NCBI GenBank assembly: GCA_947175465.1
Contig: CAMWMY010000009.1
Coordinates: 1-14,986, forward strand
Length of the DNA stretch: 14,986 nt
Origin: an uncultured Erysipelotrichaceae bacterium
Lineage (GTDB): Bacteria; Bacillota_I; Bacilli_A; Erysipelotrichales; Erysipelotrichaceae
Direction: 5' to 3'
Shown: one piece after another, positions 4,056 through 14,964 of the stretch
Layout of the letters: the number at the start of each line of letters is the position of its first letter
Numbering within the stretch: the first letter of the stretch is position 1
Translations under genes and position numbers: made by a program
Notes under the pieces: generated by a model
Told to the model about the DNA's origin: nothing
The model's database searches: none
What the model saw: the letters and a program-made list of their open reading frames with translations, nothing else

Positions 4056-5384
4056 ATGAAGACATGTATTTATAATGTTATGATTTTAACAATGAATGCG
4101 AAACAAGATGTTATAGAGAATGGATATGTTGTTTTTGAAGATGAAAAGATTGTAGAATTAGGCGAAGGAAGTTACACAGGTGTGTGTGATGAAATGATAG
4201 ATGGGGCAGGCGATATTTTGATGCCTGGAATGATTAATACCCATACGCATACAGGAATGATACCATTTCGATCTTTAGGAGATGATTGTAAAGATCGCTT
4301 ACGAAGATATTTATTTCCACTAGAATCAGCTTGTATGAATGATTCTCTTGTTTATCATAGTGCAAAGTATGCAATTGCCGAAATGTTATTAGCTGGGGTT
4401 ACGACCTTTGTTGATATGTATTATTTCGAAGATGAAGTTGCCAAAGCTACAGATGAAATGGGAGCACGTGCTTTCTTAGGGGAAACGATTATTGATTTTG
4501 CTACTTGCGATAGTGATTGTGCTTATGGTGGATATGAATATTGTAAATGGTTTATTCCAAAGTGGTTAAATCATCCACGAATTACTCCTTTTCCTGCACC
4601 TCATGCAACCAATACCAATAGTGCTGAAATGTTACAAAAAGCAAATGAGCTTGCTCAAAAATATGAGGTTCCTATTTCTTTACATGTTGCGGAGATGGAT
4701 TATGAAATGCAACATTTTAAAGATACGTATGGAAAGACGCCAATTCAATTTTTAGATGATCTTCAATTATTACATCCTCACTTATTAGCAGCCCATTGTA
4801 TTCATGTAAATGAAGAAGATCGCATATTGATGCAGAAAAGAAAATGTAGCGTTGCCCATTGTATAGGATCCAATACGAAAGCGGCTAAAGGGGTAGCGCC
4901 AGTAAAAGAAATGCTTGCTTTAGGAATTCCTGTAGGGCTTGGTACTGATGGGCCAGCAAGTGGGAATACTCTTGATATCCTGACACAATTTAAGTTATTT
5001 GCGAATTTTCATAAATGTGAGCATCGCGATCGTTCTCTTTTTCCTTCGAAAGAAATTGTTGCTCTTGGTACTATACAGGCAGCCAAAACACTACGTCTTG
5101 AGAAGGAAATCGGCTCTATTGAGGTTGGAAAAAAAGCTGATCTTGTTTTAATTGAAACTCATTCTGTCAATATGTTTCCTATTTATGATCCTTATGCTGC
5201 TCTTGTGTATAGTGCTAATGCATCCAATGTGAAAACTGTATTTGTTGATGGAAAGTGTTTAGTAAAAGATAAGCAATTAGTAAACGATTCGTTAGATGCG
5301 TTGCGAAACAATCTAAAAGAGGCAATGCAAACGTTTATACAGAAAGCAACCCATTTTTCTATAGAGGAAGATGGTGCTAAATAA
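4056..5384 (+). CDS. Amidohydrolase, MTA/SAH/adenosine-guanine deaminase family
   Basis: This 442-residue cytoplasmic metal-dependent hydrolase of the COG0402 (SsnA/MtaD) family is predicted to remove an amino group from a purine base or nucleoside. The metal-binding set is complete: H63 and H65 (NTHTH), H210 and E213 (LHVAE), H247 (AAHC) and D298 (LGTDG). SVAHCIGSNTKAAKGVAP at 265-282 and GTDGPASGNTLD at 296-307 resemble MTA/SAH deaminases more than classical GuaD. A C-terminal beta section (GSIEVGKKADLVLI) closes the composite domain. An excellent ribosome site (AAGGAAGGAGGT) lies 5 bases upstream of the ATG. The gene follows the guanine-riboswitch transporter operon, so import followed by deamination of a purine is the likely pathway. 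The exact substrate (guanine, adenosine, MTA, SAH or another aminopurine) is not decided by the sequence. Confidence 0.88.
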   Translation: MKTCIYNVMILTMNAKQDVIENGYVVFEDEKIVELGEGSYTGVCDEMIDGAGDILMPGMINTHTHTGMIPFRSLGDDCKDRLRRYLFPLESACMNDSLVYHSAKYAIAEMLLAGVTTFVDMYYFEDEVAKATDEMGARAFLGETIIDFATCDSDCAYGGYEYCKWFIPKWLNHPRITPFPAPHATNTNSAEMLQKANELAQKYEVPISLHVAEMDYEMQHFKDTYGKTPIQFLDDLQLLHPHLLAAHCIHVNEEDRILMQKRKCSVAHCIGSNTKAAKGVAPVKEMLALGIPVGLGTDGPASGNTLDILTQFKLFANFHKCEHRDRSLFPSKEIVALGTIQAAKTLRLEKEIGSIEVGKKADLVLIETHSVNMFPIYDPYAALVYSANASNVKTVFVDGKCLVKDKQLVNDSLDALRNNLKEAMQTFIQKATHFSIEEDGAK

Positions 5385-5397
5385 GATTTATATAAAG

Positions 5398-5427
5398 AAA
5401 AAAACTCCTAAATAAGGAGATTTTTTT
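5398..5427. terminator. Bidirectional terminator between convergent genes
   Basis: CTCCT (5405-5409) pairs with AGGAG (5415-5419) around a 5-base loop. There are seven A's on the left and seven T's on the right, so it can act on both strands. It serves the deaminase (+) and the YbjQ-like gene (-), which converge here. Confidence 0.8.
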
Positions 5428-5450
5428 ATAAGAAAATTTCTTTTAGTATT

Positions 5451-5762
5451 TTATTTAAAACGAACAGCAGTGCCATAAACAATAACTTCTGCAGCACCAT
5501 TCATAACAGAGCTAGAAGCATAACGAATATTAATAACTGCCTCAGCACCTAAAGCTTTCGCTTCAGTAATCATTCTATTTGTAGCTAATGCACGTGCTTC
5601 ATTCATCATCTGTGTATAAGAAGTAAGCTCACCACCAACCATATGTTTAAAAGCTTGTGAGATATCTTTTCCTATATGTTTGCTTTGAATAGTACTTCCT
5701 TTTACAAGACCTAAAGTTTCTAATTCTTTTCCACTAATAAAATCAGTATTCACTAAAATCAT
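5451..5762 (-). CDS. YbjQ/UPF0145 family protein (heavy-metal-binding-like fold)
   Basis: This 103-residue soluble protein belongs to the YbjQ (UPF0145, DUF74) family, whose members form oligomers and have no firmly known role. The family pattern is clear: an N-terminal strand ILVNTDFISGKE, then LGLVKGSTIQSKHIGKDI, a helix with ARALATNRMITEAKALGAEAVINIRYA, and a final strand AAEVIVYGTAVRF. The length is normal. The ATG is preceded by AAAAAAAGGAG, 8 bases upstream on the minus strand. It is a single gene, convergent with the deaminase and divergent from the uracil-DNA glycosylase; the context gives no functional hint. 'Heavy-metal binding' is a database label only, as no obvious metal-binding cysteine or histidine cluster is present. 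Confidence 0.9.
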   Translation of the reverse strand: MILVNTDFISGKELETLGLVKGSTIQSKHIGKDISQAFKHMVGGELTSYTQMMNEARALATNRMITEAKALGAEAVINIRYASSSVMNGAAEVIVYGTAVRFK

Positions 5763-5823
5763 ATGTGTTTCTCCTTTTTTTATTTAACATGGTAAGAAAA
5801 GCACTTCATGGAGAAAGCTATTT

Positions 5824-5829
5824 ATTATA
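5824..5829 (-). promoter_or_regulatory. Candidate -10 box for the YbjQ-like gene
   Basis: TATAAT is present on the minus strand inside the loop of an inverted repeat (GAAAGCT 5813-5819, AGCTTTC 5835-5841). No good -35 box lies 17 bases upstream. The 5' leader would be about 55 bases. Confidence 0.4.
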
Positions 5830-5913
5830 AAATCAGCTTTCACTTTCTTTTCTTTCTTTTTTATTATATAGCAACAGTATATAAATGACAAGAACAAAAA
5901 GAAAAGGATATGT

Positions 5914-5919
5914 TATAAT
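5914..5919 (+). promoter_or_regulatory. Candidate -10 box for the uracil-DNA glycosylase gene
   Basis: A perfect TATAAT lies 37 bases before the start codon. The hexamer at the ideal -35 spacing, AGAACA (5891-5896), is weak. This is the only good -10 candidate in the divergent intergenic region. Confidence 0.45.
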
Positions 5920-5956
5920 AAAAATAGTCTTTGTATGAGAAAAAGGGTGTGTATTT

Positions 5957-6550
5957 ATGGATGAAAAATTTGCACAATTAAAGCAGGATATTTTGTCTTG
6001 TCGAGAATGTAGAGATCTTTTTCAACACGAACCTTGCCCTATTTTTCAAGGAGGCCCTATGGCGAAAATCGCACAAATATCACAAGCTCCTTCCTTGAAA
6101 GTACAAGAAACACAACGACCATTTAATGATGTAAGTGGAAAAAAGCTAAAACAAGAATGGTATCAAATAGAAGATGATGTTTTTTATAATCCTCATTGTT
6201 TTTATATTACTTCTATAGGACATTGTTATCCAGGAAAGGGAAAAGGAAGTGGCGATAAATTACCACCAAAACGTTGTGCTGATTTATGGTTAGCGAAAGA
6301 ATTATCTCTCATCCAAAATGAAATCTATATCATTATTGGAGCACAGGCAGCCAATTATTTATTCCCAAATCAAAATTTTCAAGATTTAATTTTTAAAGAT
6401 CAAGTTCTTTATGGAAAGCCAGCTTATGTATTACCACATCCATCTCCCTTAAATCGTAGATGGTTTAAACAATATCCTGCATTTGAACAAGAGCGAATCG
6501 TAGAAATTCGTCGTATTATTCACAATATATTAGAATTAGATGAGGAATAA
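5957..6550 (+). CDS. Uracil-DNA glycosylase family protein (family 4-like, probable Fe-S)
   Basis: This 197-residue protein of the uracil-DNA glycosylase superfamily (COG1573 type) likely excises uracil or a related damaged base. Cysteines C15 and C18 (CRECR) together with C90 and C107 (spacing CX16C) match the layout of the 4Fe-4S ligands in family-4 enzymes. The first active-site motif is ISQAPS (41-46) where family 4 typically has GEAPG, so the acidic residue is a glutamine (Q43). FNDVSGKKL at 56-64 matches the PFxGxxGxxL segment. The second motif is the normal HPSPLN (161-166). It lacks the extra KRRIH-type insert of UdgX. The start is preceded by AAAAAGGGTG. It is probably a functional base-excision repair enzyme, with a variant motif 1. 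Confidence 0.85.
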   Translation: MDEKFAQLKQDILSCRECRDLFQHEPCPIFQGGPMAKIAQISQAPSLKVQETQRPFNDVSGKKLKQEWYQIEDDVFYNPHCFYITSIGHCYPGKGKGSGDKLPPKRCADLWLAKELSLIQNEIYIIIGAQAANYLFPNQNFQDLIFKDQVLYGKPAYVLPHPSPLNRRWFKQYPAFEQERIVEIRRIIHNILELDEE

Positions 6551-6625: not shown

Positions 6626-6662
6626 AAGATAGGTGGAAAAATTGGAAAGTTCTTCCTATCTT
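6626..6662 (+). repeat. Imperfect hairpin upstream of the DarA-like gene
   Basis: AAGATAGG (6626-6633) pairs with CCTATCTT (6655-6662). The stem continues inward with GGAA/TTC pairing through one mismatch and one wobble, giving about 12 paired positions around an 11-base loop. The downstream bases GTGAAAATATTATT are not a clean T-tail. It may be a weak terminator of the glycosylase transcript or an operator; it lies before the promoter candidate at 6685. Confidence 0.45.
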
Positions 6663-6684
6663 GTGAAAATATTATTATTTATAA

Positions 6685-6713
6685 TAGAAAAACAAGATAG
6701 AGTATGGTATGAT
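6685..6713 (+). promoter_or_regulatory. Candidate promoter for the DarA-like gene
   Basis: The -10 box TATGAT (6708-6713) and -35 box TAGAAA (6685-6690; 4 of 6 consensus bases) have a 17-base spacer. The start point would fall near 6720, just before the ribosome site AGGTGAG, giving a very short leader. An alternative -10 TATAAT is at 6680-6685. Confidence 0.4.
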
Positions 6714-6731
6714 ACAAGTGAGGTGAGTTTC

Positions 6732-7025
6732 ATGAAGTTGATGATGATTGTCGTAAGTGATGAGTATCAAGAGGCAATACTATCGAAGTTAAATGAGCAA
6801 GGTCATCGCGCAACACTCATTTCAAGCACCGGAGATTTTTTAAATTATGGAAAATCTACATTATTGTTAGGTGTCCAAGAGCAATATGTAGATGAGGTTA
6901 TATCTTATATACAAATGCAAACAAAATCTTTTTATGAAGATGAAACAAGCAATGAAGATATGCCTACACAGGTGTATATTATGGATACAAATGTAGCAAC
7001 TACATCTGTGCAACAAGAGAAATAA
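6732..7025 (+). CDS. DarA/PstA-like cyclic-di-AMP receptor homologue (DUF970)
   Basis: This 97-residue PII-like signal protein is related to DarA/PstA (YaaQ), which bind cyclic-di-AMP as trimers. Family landmarks are visible: MKLMMIVVSDEY at the N-terminus, HRATLISSTGDFLNYGKSTLLLGV (residues 20-43) and VDEVISYI (48-55). ATG 6732 is chosen because AGGTGAG lies 5-11 bases upstream and the N-terminus then matches the family; the open frame extends 33 codons further to a GTG, but those residues look unrelated. Two points are odd. The usual STGGF is STGDF, placing an aspartate beside the ligand site. The C-terminus (VYIMDTNVATTSVQQEK) is short and ends without the usual GGATVFVL-type strand. Cyclic-di-AMP binding is therefore plausible but not assured. 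Confidence 0.8.
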   Translation: MKLMMIVVSDEYQEAILSKLNEQGHRATLISSTGDFLNYGKSTLLLGVQEQYVDEVISYIQMQTKSFYEDETSNEDMPTQVYIMDTNVATTSVQQEK

Positions 7026-7823: not shown

Positions 7824-7844
7824 AAATAGAAAGGGGTGTTAAGT

Positions 7845-10019
7845 ATGTTTATTTATTTTGATGAAGAACAGCAAATATTTCATTTACAAAATGGAAAAAT
7901 TAGTTATATTATAGGGATAGAAAAAGAAAAGTATTTAATTCATCGCTATTTTGGACCTTGTATTAAGCAGTATCATCAATGCAATGAGTTACAACGCATT
8001 GATCGTGGTTTTGCGACAAATCCTATAAGTCATGAAAGAACTTTTTCGCTAAATACACTTCCGCTTGAAACAAGTACGCAAGGGAATTTAGATTATCGAA
8101 TTAGCAACTATCAATTTCGCAATGAAGAAGGACATCGAGTTACACATTTTCAATATGATCACTTCCATATTTACGAGGGAAAACCAACTTTAAAAGAATT
8201 ACCTCCTTTGCAAGGAGAGAAAGCACATACCTTATCGATTTCTCTTGTAGATAAGAAACAGTCTTTAGAAATGCTTCTTCACTATACCATTTATGAACAA
8301 TTTCCTATTATTGTACGTAGTGTGACATATAAAAATCATGGAACACAAAATGTATATTTAGAAAATGCAGGATCGATGTTAGTAGATTTTCCACGCTGTG
8401 ATTTTGATTTATTAACATTAAATGGTTCTCATACAAATGAAGCAACGATTCATCGACAAAAGTTACATCCAGGGGTTCAAATGATTGGCTCAACAAGAGG
8501 AGTGAGTAGCCCACAGCATCATCCTTTTTTAGGGCTTGTGGATAAGTATGCGAATGAACATTATGGAACAGTGTATGGTTTTCATTTTATTTATAGTGGA
8601 AATTTTATTGCTCAAGTAGAAGTAGAACAGTATGGAAGTACTCGTGTACAAATGGGAATTCATCCTGATACTTTTGAATGGAAACTTTCTGCTGGAACTT
8701 CTTTTCAAACACCAGAAGTTGTTTTAAACTTTAGTGATCAAGGATTCCAACAATTATCGCAAACTTTTCATGCTTTTTATCAATCTCAGCTTATTCCTAA
8801 ACAGTGGCAAAAGAAAGAGAGACCGATTTTATTAAATTCATGGGAAGGAAATTACTTTCAGTTTACAGAAGAAGATTTGCATAAGCAAATTGATTTAGCA
8901 AAAGAATTAGGCATTGAATTATTTGTCTTAGATGATGGATGGTTTGGAAAAAGAAATGATGATACAACATCCTTAGGAGATTGGTTTGTAAATACAGATA
9001 AATTACCACAAGGAATTGAGGGAATTGCCGATTATCTACATCAACGTGATATGCTTTTTGGTTTATGGTTTGAGCCAGAAATGATTTCGATAGAAAGCGA
9101 GCTTTTTAAACAGCATCCCAACTGGTGCTTACAAGTTCCTCATTATGAACCTACACAAGGACGCCAACAATTAGTTTTAAATTTAAGTTTGTTAGAAGTG
9201 CAAGAATATCTTATTGAGATGTTAAGTCGCTATTTATCTTCTGGAAAAATTGATTATGTAAAATGGGATATGAACCGTCATCTAAGTGATGTGGGAAGTT
9301 TTGCCTTACCACATGATCAACAAAAAGAAGTGAGCCATCGCTATGTTTTAGGGTTATATCGTATATTATCTGAGGTTACAACTCGCTTCCCTAATGTTTT
9401 ATTTGAAAACTGTTCGAGTGGTGGTGGACGATTTGATCCAGGAATGATGGTTTATATGGCACAAACATGGACGAGTGATAACACAGATGCTCTTTGTCGT
9501 TCTAAAATTCAATATGGATATAGTTTCCTTTATCCACCGATTATGATGGGAGCTCATGTTTCAGAAAGTCCTAATCATCAAGTAGGAAGAAAAACACCTT
9601 TCCATAGTCGCTTTTTAATTGCGATGAGTGGAAATTTTGGTTATGAATTAGCAATCGAAAAATTACCTAGTGACTTATTAGCACAGATAAAAGAGCAAGT
9701 TTTATTTTATAAGAAACATCGTTCTTTAATCCAATTTGGAAAATTTTATCGCATAAAAGAAATTGATGATTTTTATGCGACAGCTTGGTTATTTAAAAAT
9801 GATGAGGAAGCACTTCTTGTTTATTCTCATGGCTTAGCACGTCCAGCGCAAGCGGTTCAGTATATCAAAACGATGTATTTAGATAATGAGGCTTTGTATG
9901 AAGATAGTGAAGATAAAAAAATATATAGCGGTAGTGAATTAAATTATGCTGGTATTTTAGTTCCCCGTATAAAAGAAGATTTTAAGTGCTTTTATAAATA
10001 TTGGAAAAAAGTTTCTTAA
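7845..10019 (+). CDS. GH36 alpha-galactosidase
   Basis: This 724-residue cytoplasmic alpha-galactosidase (no signal peptide) releases terminal alpha-galactose from melibiose, raffinose and related sugars. The order is an N-terminal beta-supersandwich (about 1-320), a catalytic (beta/alpha)8 barrel (about 325-640) and a C-terminal beta domain. Key motifs are LNSWEGNY, LFVLDDGWFGKR, LWFEPEMIS, YVKWDMNR with nucleophile D475, FENCSSGGGRFD, and TWTSDNTD with acid/base D545. The length is normal for the tetrameric bacterial GH36 enzymes such as Geobacillus AgaA/AgaB. ATG 7845 follows AAAGGGGTG by 6 bases; a GTG at 7836 would overlap that site. The 3' end meets a terminator that was once shared with the GH13 gene. 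A degraded copy of its last codons lies at 11815. Confidence 0.95.
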   Translation: MFIYFDEEQQIFHLQNGKISYIIGIEKEKYLIHRYFGPCIKQYHQCNELQRIDRGFATNPISHERTFSLNTLPLETSTQGNLDYRISNYQFRNEEGHRVTHFQYDHFHIYEGKPTLKELPPLQGEKAHTLSISLVDKKQSLEMLLHYTIYEQFPIIVRSVTYKNHGTQNVYLENAGSMLVDFPRCDFDLLTLNGSHTNEATIHRQKLHPGVQMIGSTRGVSSPQHHPFLGLVDKYANEHYGTVYGFHFIYSGNFIAQVEVEQYGSTRVQMGIHPDTFEWKLSAGTSFQTPEVVLNFSDQGFQQLSQTFHAFYQSQLIPKQWQKKERPILLNSWEGNYFQFTEEDLHKQIDLAKELGIELFVLDDGWFGKRNDDTTSLGDWFVNTDKLPQGIEGIADYLHQRDMLFGLWFEPEMISIESELFKQHPNWCLQVPHYEPTQGRQQLVLNLSLLEVQEYLIEMLSRYLSSGKIDYVKWDMNRHLSDVGSFALPHDQQKEVSHRYVLGLYRILSEVTTRFPNVLFENCSSGGGRFDPGMMVYMAQTWTSDNTDALCRSKIQYGYSFLYPPIMMGAHVSESPNHQVGRKTPFHSRFLIAMSGNFGYELAIEKLPSDLLAQIKEQVLFYKKHRSLIQFGKFYRIKEIDDFYATAWLFKNDEEALLVYSHGLARPAQAVQYIKTMYLDNEALYEDSEDKKIYSGSELNYAGILVPRIKEDFKCFYKYWKKVS

Positions 10020-10022
10020 CAT

Positions 10023-10056
10023 AAAAAAGCAGATAAATGATAATATCTGCTTTTTT
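10023..10056. terminator. Bidirectional terminator after alpha-galactosidase (left junction copy)
   Basis: AAAAAAGCAGATA (10023-10035) pairs perfectly with its complement at 10044-10056 around the 8-base loop AATGATAA, ending in six T's. It begins 4 bases after the alpha-galactosidase stop. Its whole 34 bases are the exact reverse complement of the hairpin at 11846-11879. Confidence 0.92.
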
Positions 10057-10057
10057 G

Positions 10058-10215
10058 CTATTTTACTTTTATGGTATATACTTCTTTCATTGTATGTGGT
10101 ATTTGTGAGAATGTAAATATTGCTTCTTGTATAAGCTAGTACGTTAGTATTATAATAGCTAATTAAGAAGTTCCTATTGTAAAACAGGCTTGTTTGCTAG
10201 TATTCCATTGTATAG
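10058..10215 (-). pseudogene. Decayed relic of the GH13 alpha-glucosidase 3' end
   Basis: Read on the minus strand, this stretch encodes EAIFTFSQIPHTMKEVY followed by TIKVK and a stop. The intact gene at 11881 encodes EATFALSQTPYTIKEVYI ... AVRVK and a stop. The relic has lost 54 bases (in frame) between ATATGCTTC- and ATATACTTC-like direct repeats, 50 bases (frameshifting) exactly between two CTTCTTGT repeats that are still present in the intact gene at 12000 and 12050, and about 135 further bases. The rest is diverged by roughly 10-25 percent. Homology fades between 10215 and 10230. There is no start and no open frame, so it is non-functional. It shows that this junction was duplicated around the neighbouring cassette. 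Confidence 0.88.
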
Positions 10216-10350
10216 AGTATCAAGGATGTAGTTATTATATCATTTTTTATCTGAATTATTATTAACAATTCTATCAGTAGTGACTATATAAATGACAATA
10301 AAGAAAAACAAGTAGTTTATGCTCTTTTTCCGTCTATGATGTCATGTATC

Positions 10351-10379
10351 TTGATATATTCATATAATCTCCATATTAT
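10351..10379 (+). promoter_or_regulatory. Promoter of the membrane protein/LytTR cassette
   Basis: The -35 box TTGATA (10351-10356) and -10 box TATTAT (10374-10379) have a 17-base spacer. The start would be near 10386, leaving a leader of about 15 bases that is almost entirely the ribosome site AAAGGAAG. The stretch 10230-10350 before it is AT-rich, and I see nothing else recognisable there. No clear LytTR direct-repeat binding site was found. Confidence 0.65.
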
Positions 10380-10400
10380 AGCAGTGAAAGGAAGATAGTT

Positions 10401-11006
10401 ATGAACAAAATATTTATAGGAAAAAAGGTTTCTAGGAAGAAACTGTTTATTACATTTTTAATTACAATCTTTATCTCAGCATTATTTAGTAATTTCTTAA
10501 CAATTATATTTAATAGACAAGATTTATTTTTAGTTTTATTTATATTTTTCTTAGTTGTAATTTTTTTGATATACATACCTATTGTTAGTGCTTCTTGCAA
10601 ATACTGGTATTTAGAAGATAAGAAACTTGTTTTTTTAGAAGTTAGCAGATATATAGATGAGTTGCATTATGCATTTGATATTATATTAGGAAAAGAAACC
10701 AATTTTACTTTTGAATTAAATCTAAATGAAATAAAAGCAATTAATGTATATTGGTCAACACAACTGTATATTTGGAGTACAAAGAATTACAATATTATGT
10801 TAGGAATTGAAAGTAATGACGGTAGTTTTCTAACATTTGAAGCTTTAACAGGGGATACTAAAGATTTTATAAAAGCTATGAATTATTTAAGTGTAGCTAA
10901 AAAAATAAAAATTAATGATCCATACCGTTTATTAGATGCGATGAGAAAAGATAAAAATTTATATACGTATATTGATGGGGTATGTAATTGCGAAAAAGGG
11001 GAATAA
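10401..11006 (+). CDS. Unrecognised two-helix membrane protein with a C-terminal beta-rich domain
   Basis: I do not recognise this 201-residue protein. It has a basic N-terminus, two adjacent membrane helices (about 14-37 and 42-65), and then a cytoplasmic part of about 135 residues. That part begins CKYWYLEDKKLVFLEV and continues with alternating strands (FTFELNLNEIKAINVYW, YNIMLGIESNDGSFLTFEAL). This pattern recalls the bacterial PH-like domain found after two helices in small membrane proteins; this is an impression, not an identification. AAAGGAAG lies 7 bases before the ATG. It is followed after 4 bases by a LytTR regulator, so the pair is probably a signalling unit, like the known pairings of LytTR regulators with small inhibitory membrane proteins. 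It is clearly more AT-rich than the flanking sugar genes, consistent with transfer. Confidence 0.8.
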   Translation: MNKIFIGKKVSRKKLFITFLITIFISALFSNFLTIIFNRQDLFLVLFIFFLVVIFLIYIPIVSASCKYWYLEDKKLVFLEVSRYIDELHYAFDIILGKETNFTFELNLNEIKAINVYWSTQLYIWSTKNYNIMLGIESNDGSFLTFEALTGDTKDFIKAMNYLSVAKKIKINDPYRLLDAMRKDKNLYTYIDGVCNCEKGE

Positions 11007-11010
11007 GTGC

Positions 11011-11679
11011 ATGGTAAAAGTAAAATGTTTTGTAAAAGATGAAAAAAGTGCATATATAATAAATGAATTTTTGAACATTAACTTTCCTGAGTATATTACA
11101 AATAATTTTAATATGGTGGATAGCAAGGATATATTTTTATTTTTTGTAGAAGTGAATAATATTTTTGATCTAAAAAATTTTGTGAAATTACATGATGAAT
11201 GTCTAAAACAAACTTCAGAGAGTAATATTATTTTTATTAGTAATGATGATATGATGATTTTTGATTTATTAGTGTATAAGCCGTTATATTTTATAAGAGC
11301 TTCGAAACTACAAGAAGATCTTCTTAAAATGAAAATAGTTTTAAAAGAAAATCTGAAAACTTCTAACACTGTTACTATAAAGTCAGGTACAGCAATTATT
11401 AGGTTGAATTTAAAAAATGTGTATTATATTGAATCGCTAGGTCATTATTTAATCATTCATACTCAATCCGGAAAGTATAAAATTCGAGAAAAATTAGTTG
11501 ATTTTATAAACAGAATGAATAGCCTAATCTTTGTTAGAACCCATAAATCATATGCAATTAATATAAACTTTATAGATAAACTTTTTAGTAGCTATATCTT
11601 ATTAAAAAGTTGTGATAAGATACCTATAGGGAGAAATTTTAAGAAAAATGTTCAAGAGATACTAAAAATCATTGACTAA
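11011..11679 (+). CDS. LytTR-family transcriptional regulator with degenerate receiver-like domain
   Basis: This is a 222-residue DNA-binding regulator. The C-terminal LytTR domain (about 118-220) is clear: VTIKSGTAIIRLNLKNVYYIESLGHYLIIHT, KYKIREKL, FVRTHKSYAININFI and IPIGRNFKKNV. The N-terminal 110 residues have the length and strand pattern of a response-regulator receiver (IFLFFVEV, SNIIFISND, PLYFIRAS), but the key residues are missing. There is no acidic pair at the first strand, the phospho-acceptor position near 46-47 is not aspartate, and the usual lysine after the fifth strand is arginine R96. It therefore probably does not use phosphorylation. ATG 11011 follows AAAAGGGGAA; the longer frame from 10972 would overlap the upstream gene. 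It likely controls its own operon or a nearby target together with the membrane protein upstream. Confidence 0.87.
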   Translation: MVKVKCFVKDEKSAYIINEFLNINFPEYITNNFNMVDSKDIFLFFVEVNNIFDLKNFVKLHDECLKQTSESNIIFISNDDMMIFDLLVYKPLYFIRASKLQEDLLKMKIVLKENLKTSNTVTIKSGTAIIRLNLKNVYYIESLGHYLIIHTQSGKYKIREKLVDFINRMNSLIFVRTHKSYAININFIDKLFSSYILLKSCDKIPIGRNFKKNVQEILKIID

Positions 11680-11709
11680 AATCAGTATAAATAAATCTAA
11701 CTAAACTAT

Positions 11710-11725
11710 ATCTTTATAAAAAGAT
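11710..11725 (+). terminator. Possible weak terminator of the LytTR cassette
   Basis: ATCTTT (11710-11715) pairs with AAAGAT (11720-11725) around a 4-base loop and is followed by GTGACTTTATTTT. The stem is short and AT-only except for one pair. The rest of 11680-11814 is very AT-rich and holds no gene that I can see. Confidence 0.3.
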
Positions 11726-11814
11726 GTGACTTTATTTTGTATAAAAATAATCATTTATATTAATAACAAGACATCTATCAATTTAAAATCATCATTCTCT
11801 ATAAAAAGATATAT

Positions 11815-11845
11815 TTTTATAAATATTGAAAAAATTTCTTAATAT
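11815..11845 (+). pseudogene. Decayed relic of the alpha-galactosidase 3' end
   Basis: TTTTATAAATATTG followed by AAAAAATTTCTTAATAT mirrors the last codons of the alpha-galactosidase gene at 9990-10022, with two single-base losses and a C-to-T change. Reading FYKYWKKVS-stop in the original, the copy gives FYKY-stop and then a frameshift. Weaker similarity may extend left to about 11800 (TATAAAAAGAT against TATAAAAGAAGAT). It marks the right-hand copy of the duplicated junction. Confidence 0.75.
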
Positions 11846-11879
11846 AAAAAAGCAGATATTATCATTTATCTGCTTTTTT
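11846..11879. terminator. Bidirectional terminator of the PTS/GH13 operon (right junction copy)
   Basis: GCAGATA (11852-11858) pairs with TATCTGC (11867-11873) around the loop TTATCATT, extended by A6 on the left and T6 on the right. It starts just past the GH13 stop on the minus strand and can also stop + strand transcripts. It is the exact reverse complement of the hairpin at 10023-10056. Confidence 0.92.
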
Positions 11880-11880
11880 G

Positions 11881-13503
11881 CTATTTTACCCTTACAGCAT
11901 ATGCTTCATAAGGAAGTAAAGTATCATTAATTTCTTTATCATAGTTATGAATATATACTTCTTTTATTGTATATGGTGTTTGTGATAATGCAAATGTTGC
12001 TTCTTGTGATGAGAAATTAACAACAACAAGAATTTCAGTATTTCCATAACTTCTTGTATAAGCTAGTACATTAGCGTGAGAAGTAGGGAATGTTTGAAAG
12101 CTACCTTCTATTAAAATAGGCAATTCTTTTCGTAGCTTAATAAGTTTTTGATACGTATAAAACAATGAATTCGAATCTTTTAAGGCCGCTTCTACATTAA
12201 TTTCACTAGCATCACCAACAGCTAACCATGGCGTCCCTGTTGTAAAGCCAGCTTGCTTACTAGCATCCCATTGCATAGGATGACGAGCATTATCACGCCC
12301 TTTTGCGTTGATGGAAGCAATAATATCTTCTTTAGCATAGCCTTCTTTTAATCGCTGTGCATACATTCGTCTACTTTCAATATCATCTACTTCGTCAATA
12401 CTATGGATAGGATAATTAATCATCCCAATTTCTTCTCCTTGATACACATAAGGAGTTCCTTGAAGAAAGAATAAATAAATAGCTAACATCTTTCCACTAA
12501 CGACACGATATTCACGATCATTTCCCCAACGAGAAATAATACGAGGTAAATCATGATTGTTCCAGAAAAGAGAATTCCAACCTTTATTGGCAAGTTCGAT
12601 TTGCCATTTTGCAAATACTTGATGCAATTCTTGAGGATCTAATTTTTTTAAATCCCATTTTCGCTTACCGGGCTGTTTATCAAGATTAATGTGTTCAAAT
12701 TGAAAAACCATTGATAACTCTTTTCGCTGAACATCAGAGTAAAGTTGAGCAATTTCAGGAGTAGCTCCCCATGTTTCTCCTACGGTTACAAGATCATAAG
12801 GGCCAAAGGTATGCTGGTTCATCTCTTGTAAAAAAGTATGTAATTTAGGACCATTTTTGGTAATGAGAGCATCTGGCTCTTTTCCAATAAGATCAATAAC
12901 ATCTAAGCGAAAACCACCAATTCCTTTTTGGATCCAATAATTCATCATACGATAAATCTCTTTACGTAAAGTAGGATTTTCCCAATTTAAATCTGGTTGT
13001 TCTTTAGCATGAAGATGGAAGTAATATTTATTAAGCTCTGGCACAAAAGTCCAAGCAGAACCTCCAAAATTAGAAGTTAACGCATTGGGAGGTTCTTGAG
13101 CATGACCTTTTCTCCATACATAAAAATCATGATATTTACTATTAACATCTTGTTTCGCTGCTTGAAACCATGGATGCATTGATGAAGTATGATTGACCAC
13201 TAAGTCCATAATAATTTTAATATTGCGCTTCTTAGCTTCTAAAATTAAGCGATCCATATCTTCCATTGTTCCATATTCTTCTCCAATGGCTTCATAATCA
13301 CTAATATCATAACCATTGTCTTCATTTGGAGAAGGATACACAGGACTTAGCCAAATGGCATCAATTCCTAAAAGAGCTAAATAATCTAAACGTTGAATAA
13401 TCCCTGGAAGATCACCAATACCATCTCCATTACTATCTTGAAAACTACGTGGATAAATTTGATAGATAGTGGCTTTTTTCCACCAATTTGTTTTTTCTTC
13501 CAT
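11881..13503 (-). CDS. GH13 alpha-glucosidase (dextran glucosidase/oligo-1,6-glucosidase type)
   Basis: This 540-residue cytoplasmic alpha-glucosidase is of the GH13 oligo-1,6-glucosidase/trehalose-6-phosphate hydrolase group. The catalytic set is complete: DLVVNH (100-105), nucleophile D201 in FRLDVID, acid/base E243 in VGETWG and transition-state D318 in NNHD. V202 after the nucleophile fits alpha-1,6 cleavage in this group. VTVGETWGATPEIAQLYS, LSMVFQFEHINLDKQPGKRKWDL and SLFWNNHDLPRIISRWGND resemble streptococcal DexB closely. Classical phosphotrehalases usually have VGEMSST and NFHHLKVD at those places. The pairing with a PTS permease nevertheless leaves a phosphorylated substrate such as trehalose-6-phosphate possible. 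It lies 3 bases after the permease gene in a two-gene operon. Its 3' end exists as a relic at 10058-10215. Confidence 0.9.
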   Translation of the reverse strand: MEEKTNWWKKATIYQIYPRSFQDSNGDGIGDLPGIIQRLDYLALLGIDAIWLSPVYPSPNEDNGYDISDYEAIGEEYGTMEDMDRLILEAKKRNIKIIMDLVVNHTSSMHPWFQAAKQDVNSKYHDFYVWRKGHAQEPPNALTSNFGGSAWTFVPELNKYYFHLHAKEQPDLNWENPTLRKEIYRMMNYWIQKGIGGFRLDVIDLIGKEPDALITKNGPKLHTFLQEMNQHTFGPYDLVTVGETWGATPEIAQLYSDVQRKELSMVFQFEHINLDKQPGKRKWDLKKLDPQELHQVFAKWQIELANKGWNSLFWNNHDLPRIISRWGNDREYRVVSGKMLAIYLFFLQGTPYVYQGEEIGMINYPIHSIDEVDDIESRRMYAQRLKEGYAKEDIIASINAKGRDNARHPMQWDASKQAGFTTGTPWLAVGDASEINVEAALKDSNSLFYTYQKLIKLRKELPILIEGSFQTFPTSHANVLAYTRSYGNTEILVVVNFSSQEATFALSQTPYTIKEVYIHNYDKEINDTLLPYEAYAVRVK

Positions 13504-13506
13504 TTG

Positions 13507-14964
13507 TTATCTTTCCGTTACTACTTGTGTATCTTCATCTTCTTTGAAGATATCCATGTGGCGTTTTCCATAAATATAAGTGGTAATAAATCCTACACAA
13601 ATACTAATGATAATACCAATGATAAAGTAAAGAATTGAATTTGGAGCGATAGAGATAAATCCAATAACACTTGCAGGTCCCATAGCTACGGATAATACAT
13701 GGAAAGCTCCGATGAAAACACAGGCAACTGCAGAAGCAATCATTCCACAAATAAAAGGGAATTTAAGTTTAAGGTTAACTCCAAAAATAGCAGGTTCTGT
13801 AATTCCAAGCATTGCAGATACACTTGCAGAAGTAGCTAAACTTTTTTGTTTTTTATTTTTTGTCAATAACATAATAGCAAGGGTAGCAGCTCCTTGTCCT
13901 ACATTTGCCATAGAAGCAACAGGGAAAATAAACGAACCACCTGTTCTAGCAATATCAGCTAATAATGTTGTTTCAATAGCTGGGAAACTTTGGTGAAGTC
14001 CTGTAATAACAATAGGGGAATAAAATAAACCAAGAACTCCTAAACCAATAGCACCTGTAGTATTGTATAGCCATGCTAAACTATCAGTTAAACCATCAGA
14101 TACAATTCTCATGAAAGGACCTACGATAGTAAACGTTAAAAATCCTGTAATGATAATAGATAACATTGGTGTAAACGTAAAATCAAAGGCATTTGGAATA
14201 CGTTTATGAAAGAATTTCTCTAAGGTTGCTAAAATAAAAGCGACTACTAATACTGGAAGAACAGATCCCTGATATCCAGCTTGGGCAATTGATAACCCAA
14301 AAATATTCCAATAAGGCATACTACCATCAGCAATCGCATTGGCAACACCATATCCATTAATTAAATCAGGCATTACCATTGCCATACCCATAGCAGCTCC
14401 TAAATAAGGATTTCCTCCAAAACGTTTTGTTGCTGAAAATCCAATAAGAATAGGTAAAAAGGCAAAAGGCGCAGAAGCTAATAAATTAATAATGCTTGCG
14501 ACATCCTTAATATTTGGAAACATTTCCACAACAGATTGAGGTCCAAATAAGTTTTGTGCTGTTAATACATTATTAAGTGCCATCAATAAACCACCAGCTA
14601 CAAGCGCCGGAACGATTGGTACGAAAATATCAGATAGAACTTTAATAAAGGCCATCACAGGATTTTTCTTTTTCCCTTGTGTTGCAGCAGCTTTTACATC
14701 TGCTGTAGATACTTCTTGAATATTTGTAAGCTTAATCAATTCTGCATAAACATTATTGACATCCCCTGCACCAATAATGATTTGAAATTGATCATTTGCT
14801 TCAAATGTACCTTTAATTGCTTCATGTTGATCTAAAGCTTTTTGATTTACTTTGCTTTTGTCTTTCAATACTAAGCGAAGACGTGTTGCACAGTGAGCAG
14901 CAGTTTGAATATTGTCTTTTCCAAGTGCTTGATTAATATCCTGTGCGACTTTTTTGTGATCCAT
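13507..14964 (-). CDS. PTS EIIBC permease, sucrose/trehalose (alpha-glucoside) family
   Basis: This 485-residue membrane permease of the phosphotransferase system imports and phosphorylates an alpha-glucoside. The EIIB domain (about 1-85) has the phosphorylated cysteine C25 in [10 protein letters not shown]. The EIIC domain (about 103-470) has around ten hydrophobic segments, [52 protein letters not shown] and the signature [12 protein letters not shown] (387-398). No EIIA domain is fused, so a separate EIIA (often the glucose-type one) must supply phosphate. Motifs resemble SacP/ScrA and TreP about equally, so sucrose, trehalose or isomaltose-type sugars are all open. The adjacent GH13 alpha-glucosidase favours trehalose or an isomalto-sugar over sucrose, which normally pairs with a GH32 enzyme. 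The promoter lies beyond the window. Confidence 0.88.

Follow-up and report, generated by a model that had tools for sequence, protein, structure and literature searches.

The stretch of DNA studied here (the window; 14,986 nt) is one entire contig (C9) of a 1.40-Mb draft genome, comprising 234 contigs and 83% complete, of an uncultured Erysipelotrichaceae bacterium. It carries an alpha-galactosidase gene and a convergent treC-like gene of the GH13 family, separated by 1.86 kb. The junction of these genes, made up of the alpha-galactosidase end, a terminator-like hairpin and the treC end, is present twice in the same direction, at positions 9990 to 10215 (copy 1) and 11815 to 12278 (copy 2), and a two-gene operon for a membrane protein and a LytTR-domain regulator lies between the copies (Table 1). 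Copy 1 comprises the whole alpha-galactosidase gene and a treC relic, and copy 2 an alpha-galactosidase relic and the whole treC gene.

TABLE 1 Features of the duplicated junction, its insert and the adjoining genes
Feature	Position	Strand	Remarks
Alpha-galactosidase (GH36), intact	7836..10019	+	Pfam Melibiase, 1.9e-153; 3' end runs into junction copy 1
Alpha-galactosidase 3' end and stop, copy 1	9990..10022	+	Blocks 19/20 and 11/13 identical to the relic at 11815-11845
Terminator-like hairpin, copy 1	10023..10056		Loop AATGATAA; RNA fold -14.9 and -16.8 kcal/mol, z -5.7 and -6.2; found by terminator scan of the + strand
treC relic, copy 1	10058..10215	-	158 nt remaining of 398 nt of treC
AT-rich left flank, no detectable origin	10216..10314		No treC similarity beyond shuffles
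Possible own promoter of the operon	10315..10379	+	Repeat-like GTTTATGCT (10315) and TATGATGTC (10335), then TTGATA/TATTAT from 10351
Membrane protein, 201 amino acids	10401..11006	+	Two predicted helices, then soluble domain
LytTR-domain regulator, 222 amino acids	11011..11679	+	PF04397, 7e-18
AT-rich right flank, no detectable origin	11680..11814		37/200 shuffles as good against alpha-galactosidase
Alpha-galactosidase relic, copy 2	11815..11845	+	About the last 30 nt; blastn 88% over 33 columns
Terminator-like hairpin, copy 2	11846..11879		Loop TTATCATT; stems identical to copy 1
treC-like GH13 gene (phosphotrehalase), intact	11881..13503	-	Runs outward from junction copy 2; 80% amino acid identity to E. 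caccae
Trehalose-type phosphotransferase system (PTS) EIIBC	13507..14964	-	Pfam PTS_EIIC and PTS_EIIB; adjoins treC on the same strand; 87% amino acid identity to E. caccae

Two copies of the junction and their relics

The original prediction held that two same-direction copies of the junction flank some 1.6 kb of AT-rich DNA, and that each copy keeps intact only the gene extending outward, its inward half having decayed. Block matches and shuffle tests bore out the first statement, and the second was confirmed by both relics, each of which beat all of the shuffles (200/200). Aligned with the intact treC gene, the treC relic reached a gapped score of 151.2 (shuffle mean, 60.5; maximum, 74.2), and none of the 200 shuffles was as good. 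The alpha-galactosidase relic scored 94.4 against a shuffle maximum of 88.8 (0/200 as good), a narrow margin. No continuation of either relic was detected: when the segment from 10216 to 10400 was compared with the remainder of treC, 188 of the 200 shuffles scored as well or better, and for the segment from 11680 to 11813 against alpha-galactosidase the number was 37 of 200.

Matches fall on diagonals 1823 to 1825, 1877, 1927, 1961 (weak) and 2063, and the shifts between them indicate that the treC relic lacks 54, 50 and about 136 bp that the intact gene retains. Direct repeats of intact treC mark the ends of the first two deletions (CATATGCTTC/TATATACTTC and CTTCTTGT/CTTCTTGT, respectively), which would be the pattern expected of slippage between short repeats. 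The duplicated segment has a minimum length of about 460 bp, copy 2 accounting for 464 nt. Signs of a transposon were looked for in the form of a short target-site duplication, terminal inverted repeats and a transposase, and none was found; the repeat covers the ends of two genes and extends over 464 nt in copy 2.

The treC relic is nearest to the intact treC of the window and not to another GH13 gene, as had been anticipated: it matched its own treC at 111 of 133 positions, whereas the best-matching row among 42 other treC-like ones agreed at 81 of 127. Derivation from a different GH13 gene was not supported, the window's own treC leading clearly over the four blocks taken together. In blastn searches (E ≤ 0.01) of the first 183 loci, the relics matched only loci overlapping the window; when all 273 loci were searched, L199 (78% over 51 nt) and L203 (79% over 43 nt) also matched, in the last relic block only. 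The alpha-galactosidase query matched L255 as well (31 nt), outside the relic part. Within the window's genome, the sole second protein match to treC was 40% identical.

The substitutions were counted over the four blocks (133 positions), leaving out positions 10148 to 10172, which include a weak block. The relic differed from intact treC at 22 of the 133 positions, and 20 of the differences were transitions. Against 16 outgroup rows, which include two genomes counted twice, the commonest outgroup base agreed with the intact copy at 12 of the 22 differences, with the relic at 3 and with neither at 7. These substitutions fit decay in place of an unused copy, and earlier divergence as a working gene would not be strongly countered by them. 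The order of events in which the junction came first, its duplication second and the decay of the inward halves third is supported.

Terminator-like hairpins

Both hairpins fold strongly on either strand (z, -5.7 to -6.8), and their stems are identical between the copies (26/26 nt). The 8-nt loop of copy 2, TTATCATT, is the exact reverse complement of that of copy 1, AATGATAA, an agreement with a chance of about 1e-4 at the local base composition. The 34-nt hairpins are consequently inverted relative to their flanks and 100% complementary, and of the 25 longest inverted pairs listed in the window no other is complementary throughout. The expectation that the hairpin had been duplicated with the junction was upheld, except that it is not a plain direct copy, since its loop is exactly inverted in copy 2.

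An unchanged 34-nt hairpin has a probability of 0.002 at the total divergence of the relic (22/133), or of 0.04 when only the 12 relic-derived changes are counted. The lack of change in the hairpins, despite the divergence of the relic, suggests that both are under selection.

In chloroplast DNA, small inversions bounded by short inverted repeats are a familiar phenomenon, according to an excerpt of PMC12928735 (citing Kim and Lee 2005). The present case resembles the chloroplast hairpin-loop inversions described in that excerpt in that a short segment between perfect inverted repeats occurs in both orientations (PMC12928735). It differs from the cases given there in that the hairpin is bacterial and terminator-like, and in that the two orientations are seen between duplicate copies.

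Empty convergent sites in Enterococcus

A scan of named genomes showed that Enterococcus carries the same alpha-galactosidase/treC/PTS arrangement. Sites at which alpha-galactosidase and treC converge without an insert, which the original prediction expected in strains lacking the cassette, were present in all 15 Enterococcus-group genomes found with a close treC orthologue, and so the possibility that every relative has the layout of the window did not hold. The gap between the match ends at these empty sites ranged from 46 to 280 bp (about 154 bp for L198, taking its second treC piece). Among 22 genomes searched from the genus of E. caccae, 13 had a close treC orthologue and alpha-galactosidase faced it in every one (13/13); 12 of them (L184 to L195) showed at least 78% treC identity, and in the remaining one, G302 (L198), the treC frame is split. 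Enterococcus alishanensis (L038) and E. devriesei (L049) complete the 15 sites. The other 9 of the 22 genomes had only treC-like genes below 67% identity, and the loci fetched from them had no adjacent alpha-galactosidase end. Not counted among the 15 were five Enterococcus loci (L075, L076, L077, L080 and L081) with alpha-galactosidases of 43 to 45% identity and without the convergent layout, and L033, without a treC match.

In L033 (Candidatus Tetragenococcus pullicola; 4935 to 6260), alpha-galactosidase is followed by a 353-amino-acid frame, esterase-like by eye, and then by the PTS gene, which may represent another remodelling of the same alpha-galactosidase junction. A similar palindrome-rich piece of 100 to 200 bp was recognized by eye in the convergent junctions of three genomes of the genus of E. 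caccae, namely L031 (about 10190 to 10360), L188 and L189, and it is absent from the 70-bp junctions of L190, L191, L194 and L195. The convergent junction seems to tolerate insertions repeatedly. The treC frame of L198 is split at residues 385 to 386, with an identity of about 85% before the break and 68% after it.

The insert and its two genes

The DNA between the copies (10216 to 11814) is not detectably related to the neighboring genes. Its GC content is 23.3% (10259 to 11800), and its 4-mer distance of 0.395 lies outside the size-matched 95% range (0.318). Promoter-like sites were no commoner in the scan than in shuffles.

The membrane protein matched no Pfam or NCBIfam family at an E value of 0.001 or less, and a fold search with its model gave no match at that threshold either, the best being a PH-domain protein (E, 0.04). 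For its part, the regulator has PF04397 as its only Pfam match, and its LytTR part matches AgrA structures. Its N-terminal half is receiver-like in a low-confidence model (pLDDT, 65.6), and in the regulator alignments, read by eye, a conserved Glu (one Gln) occupies the position of the receiver Asp. Self-matches aside, a protein search returned six relatives of the regulator at 41 to 46% identity and none of the membrane protein.

The probability that both operon frames stayed free of stop codons by chance is 0.0065 at the total divergence of the relic and 0.057 at the relic-derived rate. If the operon came with the duplication, both frames have outlasted the clock provided by the relic, which suggests selection for the regulator.

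A viral or plasmid origin of the operon was considered, and no close relative was found. Matches of the regulator in plasmids and phages were all below 60% identity, and there were none in viral contigs; the membrane protein had no match in plasmids, and the hairpin junction pattern none in viral contigs. Neither the two operon genes nor the two longest opposite-strand frames matched integrase, replicon or transposase families.

Related membrane-LytTR operons

A profile built from the membrane protein of the window and four relatives matched (E ≤ 0.001) in 27 of 43 genomes of a family of the same order (f2). Thirty distinct places were fetched. A LytTR gene follows the membrane gene at all 20 strong ones (E of 1e-30 or better) and at one weaker one, and the 9 others, all weak matches, lack it; 4 of the 20 strong places, found via the regulator, had helped build the profile, and seven further matches with E ≤ 1e-30 were left out. 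Conversely, of 10 regulator loci inspected, 4 have such a membrane partner, and most of the other 6 have a long multi-helix protein beside the regulator. The neighbors of the operon vary among genomes and include a GidB/RsmG methyltransferase gene (L216) and an rRNA adenine dimethylase gene (L224).

No flanking duplication was detected in the fetched flanks of the 21 related operon loci, the longest listed flank repeat being 17 nt (up to three repeats were listed per place, and the regulator-side flank measured 0.69 to 0.89 kb). Duplication as the operon's own means of moving was therefore not seen at these loci. In one of the 20 strong loci (L257, 891 to 1496), the LytTR regulator lies in two frames and the membrane partner is intact. 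Direct repeats resembling GTTNATGYC, 20 to 21 bp apart, are present upstream of the operons in L254, L256, L246, L251, L271 and L252, and are candidate binding sites for the regulator.

Likeness to LytTR Regulatory Systems

LytTR Regulatory Systems (LRS) are described, in the excerpted text of PMC6193735, as pairs of a receiver-less LytTR regulator and a membrane inhibitor with autoregulation through promoter repeats. Like the HdrRM/BrsRM-type systems presented there, the module of the window is an operon of two genes, one for a LytTR regulator and the other for a membrane protein in which no enzymatic domain is known, and its regulator has no match to a receiver-domain family (PMC6193735). 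Unlike in the HdrRM/BrsRM systems of the Streptococcus mutans type, as far as that source sets them out, the membrane gene comes first in the window and its relatives, as it does in Bacteroides LRS-like operons, and the membrane protein lacks a DUF3021 or DUF2154 match. Two further departures from the LRS described are the additional receiver-like N-terminal half of the regulator, with Glu for Asp, and promoter repeats that are only weakly supported. An unbiased search upstream of the -35 element for 9-bp direct repeats of the LRS type, 11 to 13 bp apart, gave no pair with two or fewer mismatches. A consensus derived by eye from the relatives gave one pair, at 10315 and 10335, for which 3 of 200 shuffles were as good and which 6 of 20 relatives equalled in score. 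The module may be called LRS-like, its membership being unproven.

How the arrangement arose

The ancestral state would have been a convergent alpha-galactosidase and treC pair with one shared bidirectional terminator within 38 bp. A head-to-tail duplication of at least about 460 bp, covering at least the last 30 nt of alpha-galactosidase, the terminator and at least the last 398 nt of treC, would have kept both genes complete at the outer ends and created a free joint in between. The two-gene LytTR operon, probably with its own promoter, would have come into this joint either during that recombination or at a later time. No longer functional, the inward gene ends would then have decayed through point mutation and deletions, two of these between short direct repeats, whereas retention of the hairpins would have left three insulated units, with alpha-galactosidase stopping at the first hairpin and the operon and treC at the second.

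We lean toward this course of events, in which the cell's own junction was duplicated and the operon was received in the free joint. It is favored because the relics resemble the cell's own genes and no family match marks a circle, because the module occurs elsewhere without flanking duplications, and because a 38-bp convergent gap would offer almost no other site that spares both genes. Copies from the same source with decayed redundant inward parts, as a tandem duplication with an insert should leave, were found, the last relic block aside.

Several observations weigh against duplication of the cell's own junction. The last relic block (10173 to 10215) is equally near L203 and the window's treC (34/43 each), with L199 and L208 at 33/43; it is not diagnostic, so that the relic is assigned by the other three blocks, those closer to the hairpin. 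Of the 12 polarity calls, three were made on thin majorities. The differences between relic and intact treC fall at codon positions 1, 2 and 3 in numbers of 7, 5 and 10, which is a weak test because the end of treC is variable among working genes too (18, 12 and 11 differences at positions 3, 1 and 2, respectively, between E. caccae and the window). The outer limits of the duplicated segment have been erased, and local repeats are not rare, other dispersed direct repeats being present in 4 of 20 other contigs of the genome. Finally, the empty sites lie in Enterococcus, taken as another family, their terminators are not alignable with those of the window and their hairpins were judged by eye, and the window's genome was the sole one of its genus in the comparison, with no intermediate seen.

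The original prediction had offered either single-crossover (Campbell-type) integration of a circle or a tandem duplication with an insert. The geometry fits both and cannot separate them; duplication of the cell's own junction is favored, and the circle found no specific support. Campbell-type integration, in which the operon and part of the same junction would have come in on a circle whose single crossover with the chromosome left a junction copy at each end, is an unlikely but serious candidate. The direct host copies at both ends of the insert and the intact outward genes are exactly what a single crossover produces, the composition of the insert is odd, and uninterrupted sites exist in relatives. 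However, no circle, integrase or replicon was detected, and the family searches of the operon genes and the two longest opposite-strand frames gave no transposase, although genes of this kind may have disappeared since. For the regulator, plasmid and phage matches were all distant (<60%), and the membrane protein had no plasmid match. The circle would already have to hold about 460 bp of the junction, the relic bears no sign of divergence as a working gene elsewhere (a weak test), and the 21 related loci are without a flanking duplication.

An unequal crossover of the transformation type, in which incoming DNA would bridge two sister chromatids and give rise to a tandem duplication, appears improbable. 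The merodiploid model for Streptococcus pneumoniae, as outlined in an excerpt of PMC3784515, yields a tandem duplication and integration in one event. The copies in the window are, like the merodiploid duplications of that account, direct tandem copies of chromosomal DNA, formed there by unequal crossing-over (PMC3784515). Unlike the tandem duplications known from that text, the one in the window is very small (at least 0.46 kb), centers on the bidirectional terminator of convergent genes and contains unrelated DNA in its joint. No starting repeat was recognised here.

Very improbable is the remnant of a site-specific element that was once larger and of which the cargo alone survives, with an attachment site over the treC 3' end and the terminator. 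It is common for integrative elements to rebuild the end of a gene and to displace a fragment of it, but the shared segment, at least 460 bp with parts of two genes, is far longer than the usual attachment cores, there was no integrase family match, and the module is found elsewhere without a flanking duplication. Least credible of all is an assembly artefact misjoining the junctions of two strains, for which the fragmented and incomplete draft would speak, since substitutions and deletions distinguish the two copies, a misjoin would not produce decayed inward ends, and the 4-mer composition of the window fits the genome.

The locus is a well-preserved though fairly ordinary trace of an event of a familiar kind, and the regulator module inside it is mildly new. 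New here are the repeat-bounded deletions of the relic, the identical terminator stems and the exactly inverted 8-nt loop. The scar carries an internal clock, the relics serving as a neutral yardstick for the gain of an operon without a visible mobile element, and it shows a third transcription unit placed between convergent genes, neither of which was broken. The repeated occurrence of a LytTR regulator beside a member of this unnamed membrane family would add a further LRS-like system. It is conceivable, though rather doubtful, that duplication of the terminator is itself adaptive, providing an insulated landing place in a tight convergent pair and a general element-free route for small operons, in which the hairpins are kept by selection and the gene ends melt away; if so, most examples would soon become invisible.

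Genome context and neighboring genes

The GH13 gene is nearest to the phosphotrehalase treC (NF008183, 633.5 against a cutoff of 535; TIGR02403, 668 bits, below its 799-bit cutoff). The alpha-galactosidase shows 75% amino acid identity to its Enterococcus larvae and E. caccae orthologues, and the block of alpha-galactosidase, treC and PTS gene (7836 to 14964) is 75 to 87% identical to proteins of these two species. In 35 other genomes of the window's family, full-length alpha-galactosidase matches did not exceed 42%, and one partial match reached 44%.

The 4-mer distance of the window to its own genome was 0.073, compared with 0.070 to 0.194 for 20 other contigs of that genome (20 of the 234) and 0.21 to 0.38 for Enterococcus loci. 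A misbinned contig was not supported, the window lying within the range of the genome's own contigs. Since the composition fits the genome, an old horizontal transfer of the alpha-galactosidase/treC/PTS block is likely.

Dispersed direct repeats were noted in contigs L171, L178, L180 and L182 of the window's genome, with a spacing of 0.3 to 6 kb (e.g., 43 nt at 86% in L171, at 9667 and 12140).

The c-di-AMP receptor gene and an amidohydrolase gave no clear answer as kinship markers. The c-di-AMP receptor-like gene of the window (6633 to 7025) is divergent, showing 26 to 34% identity in 10 of 12 other genomes searched, the other 2 being without a match, and a second receptor-like copy in the window's genome shows 24% identity.

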